In this document: positions 17,111 through 52,920 of the stretch, piece by piece
Numbering within the stretch: the first letter of the stretch is position 1
How the letters are laid out: each line of letters opens with the position of its first letter
Made by a program: the position numbers and the translations under genes
Assembly: GCF_017094485.1 (NCBI RefSeq)
Contig: NZ_CP064786.1
Coordinates: 496,001 to 560,000, forward strand
DNA from: Natranaeroarchaeum sulfidigenes
GTDB lineage: Archaea > Halobacteriota > Halobacteria > Halobacteriales > Natronoarchaeaceae
Length of the DNA: 64,000 nucleotides
Reading direction: 5' to 3'
Notes under the pieces: generated by a model
What the model saw: the letters and a program-made list of their open reading frames with translations, nothing else
What the model was told of the DNA's origin: nothing
The model's database searches: none

Positions 17111-17383
17111 ATGCCAGAAGAAGTGCTGTTCGAGACAGAACGTAAGCAGAGCCGCGCAGAGATCGCTGACACCCTCCGCGCTGTCGCGGATAAACTGGAC
17201 ACAGGGGAGTCGATTACCCTCACGGCGGGCGATCAGTCCGTCGATATGGATCCACCGGAGAACCCGACGTTCGAGATCAAGGCCGAACGCGAGGGGAAAG
17301 CTGGGAGCGAGGAGTTGAGCATCGAGTTCGAGCTGGAGTGGAAGCCCGGCGAGAGCGACGACGCCCCCGTCAGCATCGAGTGA
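17111..17383 (+). CDS. Amphi-Trp domain protein
   Basis: This 90-residue protein matches the amphi-Trp domain. It has MPEEVLFETERKQSRAEIAD at the N-terminus, a TLRAVADKLDTGESITLTAG segment and the terminal alternating strand IEFELEWKPGE, whose Trp gives the family its name. An in-frame ATG at 17084 would add nine residues. The function of the domain is unknown; it is thought to be a membrane- or ligand-interacting beta structure. A second member lies at 47281-47529. Confidence 0.85.
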   Translation: MPEEVLFETERKQSRAEIADTLRAVADKLDTGESITLTAGDQSVDMDPPENPTFEIKAEREGKAGSEELSIEFELEWKPGESDDAPVSIE

Positions 17384-27730: not shown

Positions 27731-27845
27731 ACGGGCCGCTGTGTGGGTCGACGGTGGGAGAACGGCTGGACAGTGTCCGAACGACTGTCACAGTGTACTG
27801 TTTGTGATTTTGTATACAATGTAACATTGTAACATCGGCAAGGGC
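27731..27845. other. AT-rich intergenic segment with 15-bp palindrome
   Basis: This stretch holds no gene. ACAATGTAACATTGT (27816-27830) has perfect 7-bp arms around one A. It might be an operator for the HicBA module or a remnant. The whole gap to 28147 is 417 bases and also contains the tandem repeats and hairpins listed next. Confidence 0.35.
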
Positions 27846-27918
27846 GTCGGGGTGCTGTTGGGATAGCGTCGGGGTGCTGTTGGGATAGCGTCGGGGTGCT
27901 GTTGGGATAGCGTCGGGG
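27846..27918 (+). repeat. Three perfect 22-bp tandem repeats plus a 7-bp partial copy
   Basis: The unit starts GTCGGGGTGCTG and ends GGGATAGC. Copies lie at 27846-27867, 27868-27889 and 27890-27911, and a fourth begins at 27912 and breaks after GTCGGGG. The copies are identical, so expansion is recent or the repeats are being homogenised. There are no spacers, so it is not CRISPR. It leads directly into the hairpin segment. Confidence 0.9.
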
Positions 27919-45156: not shown

Positions 45157-45885
45157 GTGAGCGAGGATACACGAGAGGAGTTAGAGGAGTTGCGCTATAT
45201 CGGCCCGGCGACCGCCGAAACGCTGCGAACCGAGAGCGTAGAGGTGGCGGATATCCGCGACAAGCGCGTCTCCTATCAGCAACTTGTCGACGCAGGTATC
45301 AATGCGGGCGTGGCGACGAAGATCAGGCGCTGGCACTCGCTCCCGTGGTCCTTCGGGGGTGAGGGAAGCCAGCTCGACAACCGCTCGAAGAACGTTCGCG
45401 GGCTTCGTGACGGGGAACGAGAGTGGGTTGCGGCGAGTTCGGGAGCTGACGATTCGACTACCGACTCCGCAATGGATGGCGATTGGTCTCCCGCTGGATC
45501 GTCGGCTGGTCACACCGGGAACCGGTCAGAGATTCGAGACGGAGACTGGACGCCGTCCGGAGACATCGACGATACTGACGACTCTTTCACCGAGGACGAC
45601 TGGACGTCCGGGCGCGGAACGACCACTGCAGCGGCCGACGCCGAGACCGATGGAGGAGGGACAGCTGTCGCGGCCGAATCGGCGTGGCGCGAGCGGTCGA
45701 AGTCCGATCCCGTCACTGCGGTTGCTGGGGTCACGGACGACGATGCAGAACTATTGGCCGAGGCGGGAATTACGTCGGTACGCCGGCTTGCCACGGCCGA
45801 TCCCGAACAGGTCGCTGACCTACTCGACATTGAGCACGAGCGAGTCAAGCACTGGCGTTCGGAGGCGACGACGAGTACTCACTAG
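45157..45885 (+). CDS. Helix-hairpin-helix protein (DUF7409-like)
   Basis: This 242-residue protein has two helix-hairpin-helix motifs at the ends: LEELRYIGPATAETLRTESV at the N-terminus and AVAGVTDDDAELLAEAGITS plus TADPEQVADLLDIEHERVKH at the C-terminus. An acidic Ser/Thr/Asp/Gly linker separates them. It likely binds DNA or protein. The start is GTG 45157, with TATA-like GTGTAATAATCC (45121-45132) about 30 bases upstream. Confidence 0.75.
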   Translation: MSEDTREELEELRYIGPATAETLRTESVEVADIRDKRVSYQQLVDAGINAGVATKIRRWHSLPWSFGGEGSQLDNRSKNVRGLRDGEREWVAASSGADDSTTDSAMDGDWSPAGSSAGHTGNRSEIRDGDWTPSGDIDDTDDSFTEDDWTSGRGTTTAAADAETDGGGTAVAAESAWRERSKSDPVTAVAGVTDDDAELLAEAGITSVRRLATADPEQVADLLDIEHERVKHWRSEATTSTH

Positions 45886-46036: not shown

Positions 46037-46129
46037 ATGAACGCTCCGAGCGACACTTTATACTCGGTACGCACTGCCCCACTAACTCCAGAGTCGACGC
46101 GAACACGGAACGGAGGGACCGGTCGATGA
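46037..46129 (+). CDS. Leaderless 30-codon mini-ORF coupled to the FBPase gene
   Basis: The TATA box TATATATATT (46005-46014) lies about 27 bases before ATG 46037, the exact distance for a leaderless start. The 30-codon frame (MNAPSDTLYSVRTAPLTPES, then TRTRNGGTGR) ends in TGA 46127-46129 and overlaps the fbp ATG at 46126 as ATGA. It is basic and Thr-rich. No family is recognised. It may couple translation, since the FBPase ATG itself has no Shine-Dalgarno. Confidence 0.5.
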   Translation: MNAPSDTLYSVRTAPLTPESTRTRNGGTGR

Positions 46130-47022
46130 GTGACAGTATGAAAACGGTACGAACAGCGACTGCGACGGGTCAGGTGCGGACGTCGATCACTGACCAGGTC
46201 TTCGAGACGGTCGCCGAGAGCACGCCCGAACTGCGCGATGCGATCAGAGGCCGTCGCGGGAAGACTGACTCAACGAACAGAAGCGGTGAGCGACAGCGAG
46301 CAGCCGATCTCTGGTTCGACGAACTGCTCGCCGAGCGGCTCGGCAACATCGATGGAGTGGGAACGTACGCGAGCGAAGAACGCTCGGAACCAGTCGATGT
46401 CGGCGACGGGTTGAGCGTCACCGTCGATCCACTCGATGGCTCCTCGAACCTCGATTCGAACAATCTCGTCGGGACAGTTGTTGGTGTCTACGATGGGCCG
46501 CTGCCGGCGAGCGGTCGTGATCTCGTCGGGGCGGCCTTCGTCGTCTATGGCCCCACGATCACGATGGTCTCGGCGACGGCCGGAACTGTTGCCGAGTACG
46601 AGGTGGTCCACGGTGAGCTAGAGTGCCAGAAACGGGATCTGACACTCCCGTCCGAACCCAGCGTCTTTGGGTTCGGTGGGAGAGTTGACCAATGGTCCGA
46701 ATCCTTCGAGGCGTATGCCGAGGGGATCCGTGAGAACCTGAAGCTCCGGTATGGGGGTGCACTGGTCGGCGACGTCAATCAGGTGTTGGGCTACGGTGGC
46801 GTGTTCGCATACCCGGCACTCGAATCCAAACCAGCCGGAAAGCTTCGCCACCAGTTCGAGGCCGCTCCGATCGCCTATATCGTGGAATGCGCAGGCGGAC
46901 GCTCTAGCGACGGCCGCCGGTCCATCCTCGAGATCGAACCCGGTGATTTACACGAGCGGTGTCCCCTGCACGTCGGTAACAAGACATTGATCGACGAACT
47001 CGAACGCTCGCTCGCCACGTGA
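46126..47022 (+). CDS. fbp: Class 1 fructose-1,6-bisphosphatase
   Basis: This 298-residue protein has the phosphatase motif DPLDGSSN at residues 101-108 that binds the metal ions, a preceding metal Glu in YASEE (about 81-85), and substrate residues in GDVNQVLGYGGVFAYPA and GRRSILEIEPGDLHERCPLH. It dephosphorylates fructose-1,6-bisphosphate in gluconeogenesis. Length is near the usual 290-330. Confidence 0.9.
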   Translation: MSDSMKTVRTATATGQVRTSITDQVFETVAESTPELRDAIRGRRGKTDSTNRSGERQRAADLWFDELLAERLGNIDGVGTYASEERSEPVDVGDGLSVTVDPLDGSSNLDSNNLVGTVVGVYDGPLPASGRDLVGAAFVVYGPTITMVSATAGTVAEYEVVHGELECQKRDLTLPSEPSVFGFGGRVDQWSESFEAYAEGIRENLKLRYGGALVGDVNQVLGYGGVFAYPALESKPAGKLRHQFEAAPIAYIVECAGGRSSDGRRSILEIEPGDLHERCPLHVGNKTLIDELERSLAT

Positions 47023-47040
47023 ACCTGCAGTAATCAGTAC

Positions 47041-47236
47041 CTACTCCCCAGTAGAAACTGTATAACAAAGCGAATACTCCCACTCTTCAGCAAGTGGACG
47101 CAGCAGCGTCCGCCGGCCTGCTGGGGAGACAGGCCATTGCGCGGCCCGCTGGGGAGACGGGCCGCCAGGGGGAAAGAGGAGAGAGGACGGCCGTGTCACA
47201 CGCGCCGCTGAAGGGGGACGGTTCGGCCGTTACCTT
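47041..47236 (+). ncRNA. Candidate structured RNA: consecutive hairpins with identical loops
   Basis: Between fbp and the amphi-Trp gene there is a chain of perfect stems. CTACT-CCCC-AGTAG (47041-47054) is first, then CCACT/AGTGG (47080-47097), which overlaps GGACGC-AGCA-GCGTCC (47096-47111) by two bases, so they are alternatives. GGCCTG/CAGGCC (47115-47135) and GCGGCCCG/CGGGCCGC (47141-47165) share the same 9-nt loop CTGGGGAGA. ACGGCCG (47187-47193) pairs with CGGCCGT (47224-47230) and is followed by TTTT (47235-47238). A TATA-like TGTATAACAA is at 47059-47068, so a transcript of about 47090-47238 would hold the hairpins from 47096 on. The first loop (CCCC) is complementary to the GGGG in the two identical loops. 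No reading frame explains it. Confidence 0.55.
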
Positions 47237-47280
47237 TTAATCACAGTATTACTATTCCGCGTCGACAATGCTGTTGGTTC

Positions 47281-47529
47281 ATGGCAGAACGAACGTCCAG
47301 TTCGGAGACGGTGTCGACCGAAGAGATCGCAGCGTACCTCCGAGAGCTCGCGGACGCCTTCGAGGATGCGGAGACGCGAATTTCGGTCGGAAACAAGTCC
47401 GTCAGAGTGTCTCCGCCCGAGGAAGTCAACTACTCGATCGACGTTATCGAACGCTCGGCGCTGCTCAGAGGGGATCACGAGACGATCGAGATCGAGGTGA
47501 GCTGGAAACCGGCAACGTCCGGGAACTAA
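47281..47529 (+). CDS. Amphi-Trp domain protein (second copy)
   Basis: This 82-residue protein is co-linear with the copy at 17111. It has VSTEEIAAYLRELADAFEDA, TRISVGNKSVRVSPPEEVNY and the terminal EIEVSWKPATS with the conserved Trp. A TATA-like TTTTAATC lies at 47235-47242. It precedes the carboxyltransferase gene by 49 bases on the same strand but probably has its own promoter. Confidence 0.83.
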   Translation: MAERTSSSETVSTEEIAAYLRELADAFEDAETRISVGNKSVRVSPPEEVNYSIDVIERSALLRGDHETIEIEVSWKPATSGN

Positions 47530-47578: not shown

Positions 47579-49381
47579 GTGAAAGTTCGTATCGGGAACA
47601 CGGCGACCGACGAGGAGGCCACAGCGATCGCCGCGGCACTTGCGACCCACGTCGACGAGCGGATCGAGGTCTATGTCGGAACGGAGCCGGAACCGACCGT
47701 TACACGTTCTCCAGGTCACGATCCGGACCGACCCCCCCGAGAACACGGCGATATCAGTGGGTCGGAAGCCGACCTTGGACCGACGGACCGGGAACGACGA
47801 CTTCGGGAGGAGATCGACGATATCGAACAGGGCGGTCCGGGGAAGTATCGCGAGCGTCTCGACGAGCAGGGTAAACTGTTCGTCCGCGAGCGTCTGGCGC
47901 TGTGGTTCGGCGACGACGATGTGTCGGACGGGGAAGAGGCCGCCCTCCACTTCGAGGACGGTGCATTCGCCAACTTCGATAGCTGGCATCCGAACAGTCC
48001 CGAGGTCGACGAGTACGATGCCGACACGAGACTACCTGCTGATGGTCTGCTGACAGGTGCTGCGGCGTTTGAGGGACGGGACGTTCACTTCATGGCGAAC
48101 GATTTCACCGTCAAAGCGGGTTCGATGGCCCGACGGGGGGTCGAGAAGTTCCTGCGGATGCAACAGCGGGCGCTCAAATCGGGCAAACCGGTGCTGTACC
48201 TGATGGACTCCTCGGGCGGTCGGATCGACGAACAGACCGGATTTTTCGCCAACCGGGAGGGAATCGGGAAGTATTACTACAACCACTCGATGCTTTCCGG
48301 ACGCGTCCCGCAGATCTGTGTCCTCTACGGGCCCTGTATCGCTGGCGCGGCGTATACCCCCGTCTTCGCCGATTTCACCGTGATGGTCGAGGACGTCAGC
48401 GCGATGGCAATCGCCAGCCCCCGGATGGTCGAGATGGTCACCGGCGAGCGGATCGATCTGGAGGAGCTCGGCGGCCCGAAACTACACATGGAGGAGTCAG
48501 GGAGCGCGGACCTGATTGCCCGCGACGAGGAGCACGCCCGCGAATTGGTTGCGGATCTCATCGGCTACCTGCCCGACAAAGCGGGAGAGAACCCGCCGCG
48601 ATGCGAGGGGCGACCACCGGTGAAGTCCCCCGACGGGATCGATGCCGTCGTCCCCGAGAAACCCAATGAGAGCTACGACGTACTGGACCTGATCGAGCGA
48701 GTCGTCGACGCCGACTCCTTTTTCGAACTTCGAGAGGGCTACGGCAAGGAAATCGTCACCGGGTATGCACGAATCGACGGCCGACCGGTCGGCATCGTCG
48801 CCAACCAGCCCGCGGTACGTGCGGGGGCGATCTTTCCGGACGCCGCCGAGAAGGCCGCGGAGTTCATCTGGAAATCCGACGCCTACGAGATCCCGATCCT
48901 CTATCTCTGCGATACGCCCGGCTTCATGGCGGGGTCGCAAGTCGAGAAGGAGGGTATTCTGGAGCAGGGCAAGAAGTTCATTTACGCCACCTCTTCTGCG
49001 ACCGTCCCACAGCAGACGGTGGTCACTCGCAAGGCCTACGGCGCGGGCATCTACGCCATGGGCGGCCCCGCCTACGACCCCGAGAGCGTCATCGCGCTAC
49101 CCTCCGGCGAGATCGGGATCATGGGGCCCGAGGCCGCGATCAACGCCGTCTACGCCAACAAACTCGACGAGATCGACGATCCAGACGAGCGGGCGGAACG
49201 CGAACAGGAGCTCCGCGAGGAGTACCGCGAGGACATCGACGTCCACCGAATGGCCAGCGAGGTCGTCATCGACGAGATCGTCCCGCCGAGCGATCTCCGG
49301 GCGCAACTGGCCGCCCGCTTTGCGTTCTACGAGGACGTCGAGAAAGAGGTGCCCGAGAAGAAACACGGCACCGTTCTGTAG
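47579..49381 (+). CDS. Acyl-CoA carboxylase carboxyltransferase with N-terminal epsilon/PccX-like extension
   Basis: This protein is about 600 residues, roughly 85 longer than a standard PccB. Residues 1-35 (MKVRIGNTATDEEATAIAAA, then ALATHVDERIEVYVG) resemble the epsilon/PccX small subunit of acyl-CoA carboxylases. A charged linker follows. From about residue 80 the two carboxyltransferase domains run with DSSGGRIDE, GPCIAGAAYTP, CDTPGFMAGSQVEKEG and PSGEIGIMGPEAAINAVYAN. It transfers CO2 from biotin to an acyl-CoA. The biotin carboxylase subunit is not in the window. GTG 47579 lies about 28 bases after the TATA ATATTTTATC, leaderless. Confidence 0.85.
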   Translation: MKVRIGNTATDEEATAIAAALATHVDERIEVYVGTEPEPTVTRSPGHDPDRPPREHGDISGSEADLGPTDRERRLREEIDDIEQGGPGKYRERLDEQGKLFVRERLALWFGDDDVSDGEEAALHFEDGAFANFDSWHPNSPEVDEYDADTRLPADGLLTGAAAFEGRDVHFMANDFTVKAGSMARRGVEKFLRMQQRALKSGKPVLYLMDSSGGRIDEQTGFFANREGIGKYYYNHSMLSGRVPQICVLYGPCIAGAAYTPVFADFTVMVEDVSAMAIASPRMVEMVTGERIDLEELGGPKLHMEESGSADLIARDEEHARELVADLIGYLPDKAGENPPRCEGRPPVKSPDGIDAVVPEKPNESYDVLDLIERVVDADSFFELREGYGKEIVTGYARIDGRPVGIVANQPAVRAGAIFPDAAEKAAEFIWKSDAYEIPILYLCDTPGFMAGSQVEKEGILEQGKKFIYATSSATVPQQTVVTRKAYGAGIYAMGGPAYDPESVIALPSGEIGIMGPEAAINAVYANKLDEIDDPDERAEREQELREEYREDIDVHRMASEVVIDEIVPPSDLRAQLAARFAFYEDVEKEVPEKKHGTVL

Positions 49382-51176: not shown

Positions 51177-52781
51177 TTATTTGCGCGGCGCCATCGACTC
51201 TTCCAGATCGATCATGCGCTGTGCGAACTCCTCGGGAGCCTCGTCGTGGTATTCCCAGATATTGATCTCGTTGTTTCGGATATCGTCGACCTGAGGGTGT
51301 TCCCCACTGATCATCCATGTCCAGTCAGTTTGACCAGGGTACATCAGCGGAAGTGTGTAGGTCTCGATGTCGTCCCAGTCTGGTTCGCCCTCGATCTCTT
51401 CGGCGACCAGTTCCGATGTGCCGAGTTCATCACTCTCACCCTGGTATTCGGGCTCGACGCCGAGTCCGAGTTTGTACGGATATCCGACCCAGTGCCAGCG
51501 CTGGGCACCTCCACCATGGACCGCCGGTGAGAAGTCGTAGACTTCACCCGGTTCGAATTCCGTTTCACCGAGATACCCCACAGAGAGGTCACGCCACATC
51601 TGGACCGTCCACGTTCCGTCTTCCCAAGTTGCGTCCACTTGCCAGATTGCCCCTGGCCCCTCGACTGCGTCTGGACGGTTGTAGCGTCGGGGGATGACTG
51701 CCCCCTCGTAGACGTCAGCCTCCTCCTCGTCGAACGGCACCATGTTTTCGTTCTCGATCAAGGCGTGCGTATCGGTCTGTAACACTTCCCCTTCGTAAAT
51801 CTCGTCGAGGTCCAATGTCCCTCCATCGACGATATCCGGATCGAACATATACTCGGGGTTGCCGTCCACGAGATCCTGGCTGTTGCGGACCCGCGTCGAG
51901 GGTTCATCCATTGCACCATGACGGTGGTCAAGAATACAGTGTGTCGTGGCGTACCCGCCAGGTCCACCACGGTGTGCCCGGAACATGGGCATATCAAGGA
52001 ACTCTCCGTTTTCTAGCATCTCATCAAGCTCCTCCTGATCTTTGACGTCGTCCCAGTCGTTTTCCCACCACTCGCCGTTTCTGGATTGTGGAATGTACTT
52101 TCTGACGTCGTCATTTTCGAGGATGTCTCCGTGGTGTGGGTGCTCTTCGACTTCCTCACCTTCGACTGCTCCCGGCAGCGTTCGCGTTCCCTCGTGGATA
52201 GTAAGCCAGCCGCCGAAGTTCTCGAACCCTTCGACACTACCGTCATCAATAAAGAAGGCCAGCCTATCCTCGGTAAAGCCACTGAAAATATCGCCGACGC
52301 CGTAGTCCGGATCCGCGGCGCCGGGGTTGGGCTCACCGTACCGTACCCATTCGTCGTCTTCGTACACGAACAGGTCGTGGAACCAACCGTTCGGTACGTC
52401 CCAGTCCCACTCGAAGTTGAAGAAAATCTGCTCGTCGTTGTACGCGACTTGGGTATCGAGTGAGATGACGAGGTCTTTCATCACCCAGTCCGGCATCATC
52501 GTGTCGATTTCGGTGTAATCTGGACGCTCTGTTGTTTCCTCGTCGTCCTCGTCACCGTTTTGTGGCTCCGGATCGTCAGCAGTGTCGTCTTCCGGTTCGC
52601 TGAACAGGCCGAGACAGCCAGCCACGGAGACGGTCCCGAGGCCACCAATGGCACCCAGTAGTCGCCGACGGTGGGTTTCCGAACTCCCCCGCGGCATCGT
52701 GAACGTTCCGTCGAGACTCTCTTCGATCTCTTTTGCTTGCTCTTCGTCTATCGGCGGTTCAGACGGTTGGTCATCGCCCAT
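51177..52781 (-). CDS. Exported ethylbenzene dehydrogenase gamma-type heme protein
   Basis: This protein is about 534 residues. A Tat signal with twin arginine (THRRRLLGAIGGLGTVSVAG) and lipobox Cys56 directs export and lipidation. An N-terminal extension of 28 residues precedes a likely alternative start, M29 (52697). The body matches the EB_dh family that holds heme b with Met/Lys-type ligands, with FNFEWDWDVPNGWFHDLFVY, WTVQMWRDLSVGYLG and GAQRWHWVGYPYKLGLGVEP. Family members pass electrons from a molybdopterin enzyme; no catalytic subunit is in the window. It is divergent from an exported ferredoxin at 53072. Confidence 0.8.
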   Translation of the reverse strand: MGDDQPSEPPIDEEQAKEIEESLDGTFTMPRGSSETHRRRLLGAIGGLGTVSVAGCLGLFSEPEDDTADDPEPQNGDEDDEETTERPDYTEIDTMMPDWVMKDLVISLDTQVAYNDEQIFFNFEWDWDVPNGWFHDLFVYEDDEWVRYGEPNPGAADPDYGVGDIFSGFTEDRLAFFIDDGSVEGFENFGGWLTIHEGTRTLPGAVEGEEVEEHPHHGDILENDDVRKYIPQSRNGEWWENDWDDVKDQEELDEMLENGEFLDMPMFRAHRGGPGGYATTHCILDHRHGAMDEPSTRVRNSQDLVDGNPEYMFDPDIVDGGTLDLDEIYEGEVLQTDTHALIENENMVPFDEEEADVYEGAVIPRRYNRPDAVEGPGAIWQVDATWEDGTWTVQMWRDLSVGYLGETEFEPGEVYDFSPAVHGGGAQRWHWVGYPYKLGLGVEPEYQGESDELGTSELVAEEIEGEPDWDDIETYTLPLMYPGQTDWTWMISGEHPQVDDIRNNEINIWEYHDEAPEEFAQRMIDLEESMAPRK

Positions 52782-52880: not shown

Positions 52881-52920
52881 AAGTGTAAAAAGGAATGTAA
52901 AAGTGTAAAAAGGAATGTAA
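52881..52920 (+). repeat. Perfect tandem 20-bp repeat in a promoter region
   Basis: AAGTGTAAAAAGGAATGTAA occurs twice in direct succession at 52881-52900 and 52901-52920. The motif AAGTGTAAG occurs again at 52961. It sits between the heme protein and ferredoxin genes, next to a TATA-like GTAATATAC (52917-52925). It may be a duplicated activator site. Confidence 0.9.

Follow-up and report, generated by a model that had tools for sequence, protein, structure and literature searches.

The window analysed here is a 64,000-nucleotide stretch of the 3.04-Mb, single-contig genome of Natranaeroarchaeum sulfidigenes (G000), with gene matches that are haloarchaeal; in it, a group of hairpins lies between fbp and an amphi-Trp gene. 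The features of the locus, in window coordinates, are listed below.

46126-47022: fbp, the upstream neighbour in the window genome
47041-47054, no strand: palindrome CTAC-N6-GTAG (CTACT-CCCC-AGTAG), 5′ of the promoter box
47051-47070, plus strand: GTAGAAACTGTATAACAAAG, predicted promoter (BRE/TATA type) of the small RNA; GTAG-N3-CTSTATWACMAAG within it is kept in four genomes
47086-47236 (ends approximate), plus strand: predicted small RNA, from promoter spacing, conservation and fold
47094-47113, plus strand: hairpin H1, GTGGACGC-AGCA-GCGTCCGC, from the fold and from pair changes relative to G003
47115-47135, plus strand: G-tetraloop hairpin H2, copy 1, a 6-bp stem (47115-47120/47130-47135) around CTGGGGAGA
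47141-47165, plus strand: G-tetraloop hairpin H2, copy 2, an 8-bp stem (47141-47148/47158-47165) around CTGGGGAGA; absent in G001
47178-47189, plus strand: purine block GGAGAGAGGACG, invariant in four genomes; proposed pairing seed
47187-47230, plus strand: 3′ part with alternative small stems whose form is poorly conserved
47247-47258, plus strand: predicted separate TATA-like box TATTACTATTCC of the amphi-Trp gene
47281-47529, plus strand: amphi-Trp gene (82 aa; TIGR04354, PF20068), downstream of the predicted small RNA
47579-49381: carboxyltransferase gene, called pccB, 3′ of amphi-Trp

The open reading frame upstream of fbp (45157-45885) combines an N-terminal DUF7409 domain with a C-terminal helix-hairpin-helix domain. 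A second amphi-Trp paralogue (17147-17356, 36% identity) has an upstream region (L017) that showed no such hairpin chain on quick reading. Two perfect repeats lie elsewhere in the window: a 22-bp tandem repeat, GCGTCGGGGTGCTGTTGGGATA, in 3.4 copies (27844-27918, 100% matches) and a 20-bp direct duplication, AAGTGTAAAAAGGAATGTAA, in 2 copies (52881-52920).

All stems listed in the preliminary description of this DNA are present in the sequence, including overlapping alternatives within about 47080-47113 (CCACT/AGTGG and GTGGACGC/GCGTCCGC) and a 7-bp pair, ACGGCCG/CGGCCGT at 47187-47193/47224-47230, which stands shortly 5′ of a TTTT at about 47234-47237. The same description held that two unlike stems carry one 9-nt loop. 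CTGGGGAGA does occur in both H2 copies, but the copies (47114-47135 and 47142-47163) are identical at 20 of 22 positions, the sole difference being one compensatory pair (U-A to C-G), and are therefore a tandem pair rather than independent stems. Moreover, the predicted loop comprises 4 nt and not 9, since RNAfold closes the GGGG with C-G and U-A pairs and leaves the next A bulged.

The hairpins are real and not products of chance. The window has 500 GGGG sites when both strands are counted, and the two H2 copies are the only ones with a stem of 6 bp or longer; a GGGG-tetraloop stem this long appeared in none of 2000 dinucleotide shuffles, and for the GGGG stems of the four genomes discussed below the corresponding counts are 0, 0, 0 and 1 of 2000. 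The bare 9-mer CTGGGGAGA carries less weight: its two occurrences in the window were equalled by 10 of 100 shuffles. The fold z score is -3.3 for the plus strand (0 of 200 shuffles as good) and -2.2 for the minus strand (6 of 200). Rfam 15 at its gathering score gave no match at the locus and only a tRNA elsewhere in the window; below threshold, mir-4435 (E 0.93) and ar7 (E 2.7) were reported at the locus, both on the minus strand.

Comparison with the congener G001 revealed 184 identical positions of 191 (96%) across 47037-47255, together with a 28-nt gap, and 117 of 121 across the predicted RNA (47087-47235) outside that gap. Third codon positions nearby range from 76% to 85% (fbp, 240/297; amphi-Trp, 70/82; aligned part of pccB, 365/482), and the stretch upstream of fbp is identical at 131 of 176 positions. 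Because its identity exceeds that of the neighbouring third codon positions, the intergenic block is concluded to be under strong constraint. A coding reading was rejected, the 28-nt length difference not being a multiple of three. This difference leaves G001 with a single H2 hairpin whose arms resemble copy 1 and whose right flank resembles copy 2; we infer that G001 lost one copy through recombination between copies, while a duplication in the window genome is a possible alternative. One minimum-energy fold is closed by 7 bp at 47085-47091/47207-47213; this stem is broken in G001 and is for this reason not claimed.

A diverged counterpart was found upstream of the same amphi-Trp gene in G003 and G005, which represent a second genus of the family and in which the regions upstream of amphi-Trp and pccB were read. 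In both, GTAG-N3-CTSTATWACMAAG is followed by a GC-rich H1, a GGGG-tetraloop H2 (CCCAATC-GGGG-GATTGGG and CCGAATC-GGGG-GATTCGG) and then GGAGAGAGGACG. The loop had been proposed to be the conserved part; this holds for GGGG, which is kept in both genera, but not for CTGGGGAGA, which is replaced by the context ATC-GGGG-GAT. In the four-genome alignment, the longest invariant run is GGAGAGAGGACG with 12 columns, followed by a run of 4.

Pair changes were counted by structural superposition. Between G000 and G003, five of the eight H1 pairs are changed on both sides, as are five to six of the seven H2 pairs between the two genera; G003 and G005 differ at four H1 pairs and one H2 pair, whereas six H1 pairs are unchanged between G000 and G005, one outer H1 pair of G005 being non-standard. 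The comparison with relatives that the preliminary description had called for thus came out in favour of H1 and H2, both kept with changed bases in the second genus. From one genus to the other the stems are formed by different bases, but the promoter box, the GGGG tetraloop and GGAGAGAGGACG are retained; this favours a structured RNA that has a promoter of its own. One could suppose instead that a GC-rich palindromic block is conserved as DNA, as operators or as a terminator of fbp, given that conserved DNA elements (the palindrome, the promoter boxes) are present and that a stem precedes a T run. However, the stems remain paired while their bases change between genera, and fbp is not the upstream neighbour in the second genus; we regard such a reading as extremely unlikely. 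That a real structured RNA is encoded at the locus we consider very likely, and the earlier proposal of an undescribed plus-strand noncoding RNA starting near 47090 agrees with the missing Rfam match at gathering score, the strong conservation, the conserved TATA-like box and the stems kept with changed bases.

The RNA appears to be restricted to close relatives. A BLAST-type DNA search of 59 genomes returned only the window genome and its congener. The model R1, run on 392 genomes of the order, matched 25 at E ≤ 1, none convincing outside the genus; among the nine genomes of the family, which include five of a third genus, it found G005 at E 0.3, a match that is real by position, and missed G003. 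Of the 18 neighbourhoods of R1 matches outside the genus (L037-L054), only L047 contains CTGGGGAG. Plasmids yielded distant fbp genes only. In G003, an intergenic stretch (L058, C2 near 150470) has a GC-rich hairpin whose loop is CGGGGGA, with AGTGGGGAGAG after it; the model match there is weak (E 0.24).

These searches bear on the idea that the RNA is a protein sponge built on repeated CTGGGGAGA loops. RNAs of the CsrB/RsmZ type carry G-rich loops with a GGA motif on hairpins in a repeat array; CsrA is not known from archaea, as the preliminary description also states. Two hairpins with an identical loop in the window genome would fit this design, but they are the tandem pair described above, the other three genomes (G001, G003 and G005) have a single G-loop hairpin in which the loop is kept only as GGGG, and a hairpin model detected no further convincing copy above background in the nine family genomes. 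The sponge is therefore highly improbable.

The TATA-like box of the predicted RNA stands at a constant 32-33 nt, counted from the start of TATWAC, from H1 in all four genomes. Kissing between the CCCC loop of the palindrome and the GGGG loops had also been suggested. The palindrome, however, lies 5′ of the TATA-like box and so is probably outside the transcript, a DNA element rather than a part of the RNA; its ends (CTAC/TTAC..GTAG) are kept in all four genomes, whereas its middle is not, reading TCCCCA in the window genome and G001, GCGTCA in G003 and CGAGAC in G005. At the other end, TTTT is TTTTT in G001 and is unmatched at that place in the second genus. It could possibly end the transcript, given that a passage of PMC7237163 describes termination at T-stretches, with or without a hairpin, in Haloferax.

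The amphi-Trp gene is the syntenic neighbour of the element in both genera. In the second genus, ABC-transporter-like genes separate fbp from the RNA, which indicates that the RNA goes with amphi-Trp and not with fbp; a connection with fbp or with the control of gluconeogenesis by TrmB was rejected on the same ground, and the part of PMC10817205 relevant here bears on the fbp promoter only. The five third-genus genomes have fbp and pccB, but neither amphi-Trp nor such an element was seen immediately upstream of pccB. Strands in some family neighbourhoods were guessed from stop counts, and the contig of L077 stops before amphi-Trp. The shared orientation and neighbour in both genera might suggest that the hairpins form a cis-acting 5′ leader of the amphi-Trp mRNA. 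Against this, the distance from the purine block to the amphi-Trp ATG ranges between about 100 and about 200 nt, and, as read from the DNA only, a TATA-like box belonging to the gene itself precedes that ATG by 34-35 nt in each of the four genomes; a leader is thus an improbable explanation.

The purine block led to a second locus. The pattern GGGG, 8-36 nt, GGAGAGAGGACGKCY was scanned for in the 392 genomes of the order, with the pattern written backwards as control. It occurs in five genomes (none for the control): each of the four RNA-bearing genomes has a second place besides the RNA locus, set against a background of 1 in the 388 others. The fifth genome, G320, has a single match, which we take for chance. 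Allowing up to two mismatches in a 16-mer, 15 places were found in the four genomes, of which only the RNA locus and this second place recur in all four. The second place lies on the opposite strand directly upstream of rnp4, the gene for RNase P component 4 (Rpp21-like), as identified by Rpr2 (PF04032); NF003045 scored below its cut-off.

Haloarchaeal mRNAs are mostly leaderless. A strongly conserved, hairpin-forming, C-rich leader of about 70 nt precedes rnp4 in 22 of 35 loci read (nine from the family, 12 from another family and 1 from a third). The leader of the window genome lies outside the window (C1:1783450-1783522; L114:1431-1503), and its homologues are in L115-L122 and L140-L162; a second rnp4-like copy in G008 (L123), outside the 35-locus count, has no such leader. 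The leader reads GGGGC..GGA[loop]UCC..GCCCC, then GGAA(U/A)CCCCC..CCCCCC..UUCC near the ATG, with an A/T-rich promoter-like box upstream. Its loop region is CGUCCUCUCUCC in both RNA-bearing genera, CACUCUCUC (once UACUCUCUC) in the third genus and, in the other large group, CUUCUAUCC or something close to it in most cases. Covariation is weak, since most pairs of the hairpin do not vary; one pair does (A-U in 18, U-G in 2, G-U in 1 and A-G in 1). Rfam gave no match up to E 10 for one leader stretch (L100), and literature searches turned up no description of this small RNA or of the rnp4 leader.

The RNA is complementary to its own genome's rnp4 leader over 13, 13, 14 and 16 nt in the four genomes, so that conserved complementarity to a target mRNA, a trait of base-pairing archaeal small RNAs, is present in all of them at the level of primary sequence; for the leaders of the third genus, which lacks the RNA, the figure is 7-9 nt. 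In the window genome, pairing of the seed extends over no more than 13 nt (GGACGGCC against GGACGTCC). A complement of this length is by itself not rare and is expected now and then: another lies in the window at 51630, and 2 of 2888 overlapping control stretches have one. Whole-length duplex energies are not exceptional either, with 13-17 of 200 shuffled RNAs as good (the G003 leader including upstream DNA). The predicted unpaired probability is 0.84 for the leader site in all four genomes, 0.85-0.99 for its C-run and 0.96-1.0 for the GGGG loops; for the seed it is 0.87 in G000 and 0.21, 0.59 and 0.51 in the others, with transcript ends guessed, so that good exposure of the seed is predicted in G000 alone.

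Two further readings of this match have to be weighed. In the first, the small RNA is real, the partner of its G-loops and purine block is a protein or a different set of mRNAs, and the rnp4 match is coincidental. Conservation of the RNA by itself, the expectation of a 13-nt match somewhere in a genome and the varying exposure of the seed would all agree with this. Against it, the match uses the only long invariant block together with an orthologous conserved loop in both genera, and the scan background is low; we judge it somewhat unlikely. In the second, the loci are related: the strand opposite rnp4 would likewise give rise to a G-rich RNA, with its end at TATTTTTT, and the two transcripts would share one binding factor. 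The order GGGG..GGAGAGAGGACGTCC is indeed the same at both loci, GGGGGATTC-GGGG of G005 resembles GGGGGATTCCGGGG, and a T run comes after. Yet no TATA-like box was seen on that strand, where it would fall inside rnp4, and the T run, read in the opposite direction, belongs to a box (AAACAAAAAATACTTG or ..ATATATCC) that every family genome has at promoter distance from the leader. Furthermore, the U-G and G-U leader pairs favour the rnp4 sense strand. This second reading is quite unlikely.

We give weight to pairing with rnp4 because it involves the only long invariant block and an orthologous loop in both genera, because the GGGG and C-run elements follow in the same order, and because the background is 1 in 388. 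Since the four genomes are related and not independent, a single coincidence inherited by all of them may account for the second locus; pairing as such is, in our estimate, as apt to be true as false. Based on these data, the explanation that we put first, with about an even chance of being correct, is that the locus encodes a structured small RNA on the plus strand with its own promoter, which would act by pairing with the rnp4 leader. First, transcription would be driven from the predicted box at 47051-47070 and start near 47086-47090. The transcript is then computed to fold into H1, one or two H2 hairpins, an exposed purine stretch and a variable 3′ part, a step for which the stem-preserving base changes give partial support. 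Next, as their complementarity suggests, GGAGAGAGGACG would pair with the loop of the conserved rnp4 leader hairpin, and the GGGG loops could pair, in correct antiparallel order, with the C-rich stretch that separates this hairpin from the start codon of rnp4. Finally, we speculate that rnp4 translation might be blocked or leader folding altered, the outcome being repression or, less likely, activation by refolding.

More tentatively, this could be a clade-specific RNA that has co-evolved with the rnp4 leader, reads its pyrimidine loop and C-rich stretch at once and tunes tRNA-processing capacity, a proposal that is possible but appreciably less probable than pairing itself. If such co-variation of RNA and leader is true, the leader loop CTTCTATCC would go with RNAs carrying GGATAGAAG beside a G-tetraloop hairpin. 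Few haloarchaeal small RNAs have a defined target. The locus offers a family of small RNAs whose core is conserved, names a predicted target that has a conserved structured leader, and lets the pairing be predicted precisely; if this is right, the supply of one protein subunit of RNase P is linked to a small RNA.

Like CsrB and RsmZ, the predicted RNA presents a G-rich loop on hairpins; unlike them, it has one or two hairpins, GGGG instead of GGA, no repeat array and an invariant block outside the loops. Among archaeal RNAs, it is reminiscent of sRNA132 of Haloferax volcanii, as portrayed in part of PMC6560208, in being haloarchaeal, intergenic and limited to close relatives, with constant neighbours and two predicted pairing regions, although the site described there for sRNA132 is in a 3′-UTR and the site predicted here is a structured 5′ leader. 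In sRNA162 of Methanosarcina mazei, according to a section of PMC3510493, pairing takes place through a single-stranded linker, and a predicted ribosome binding site is masked. The RNA proposed here would share with it the archaeal setting, a single-stranded linker that pairs near the start region and two pairing domains; it would differ in its proposed target, the leader of an RNase P subunit, and in its contacts, loop-to-linker and loop-to-C-run, and we claim no kinship between the two.
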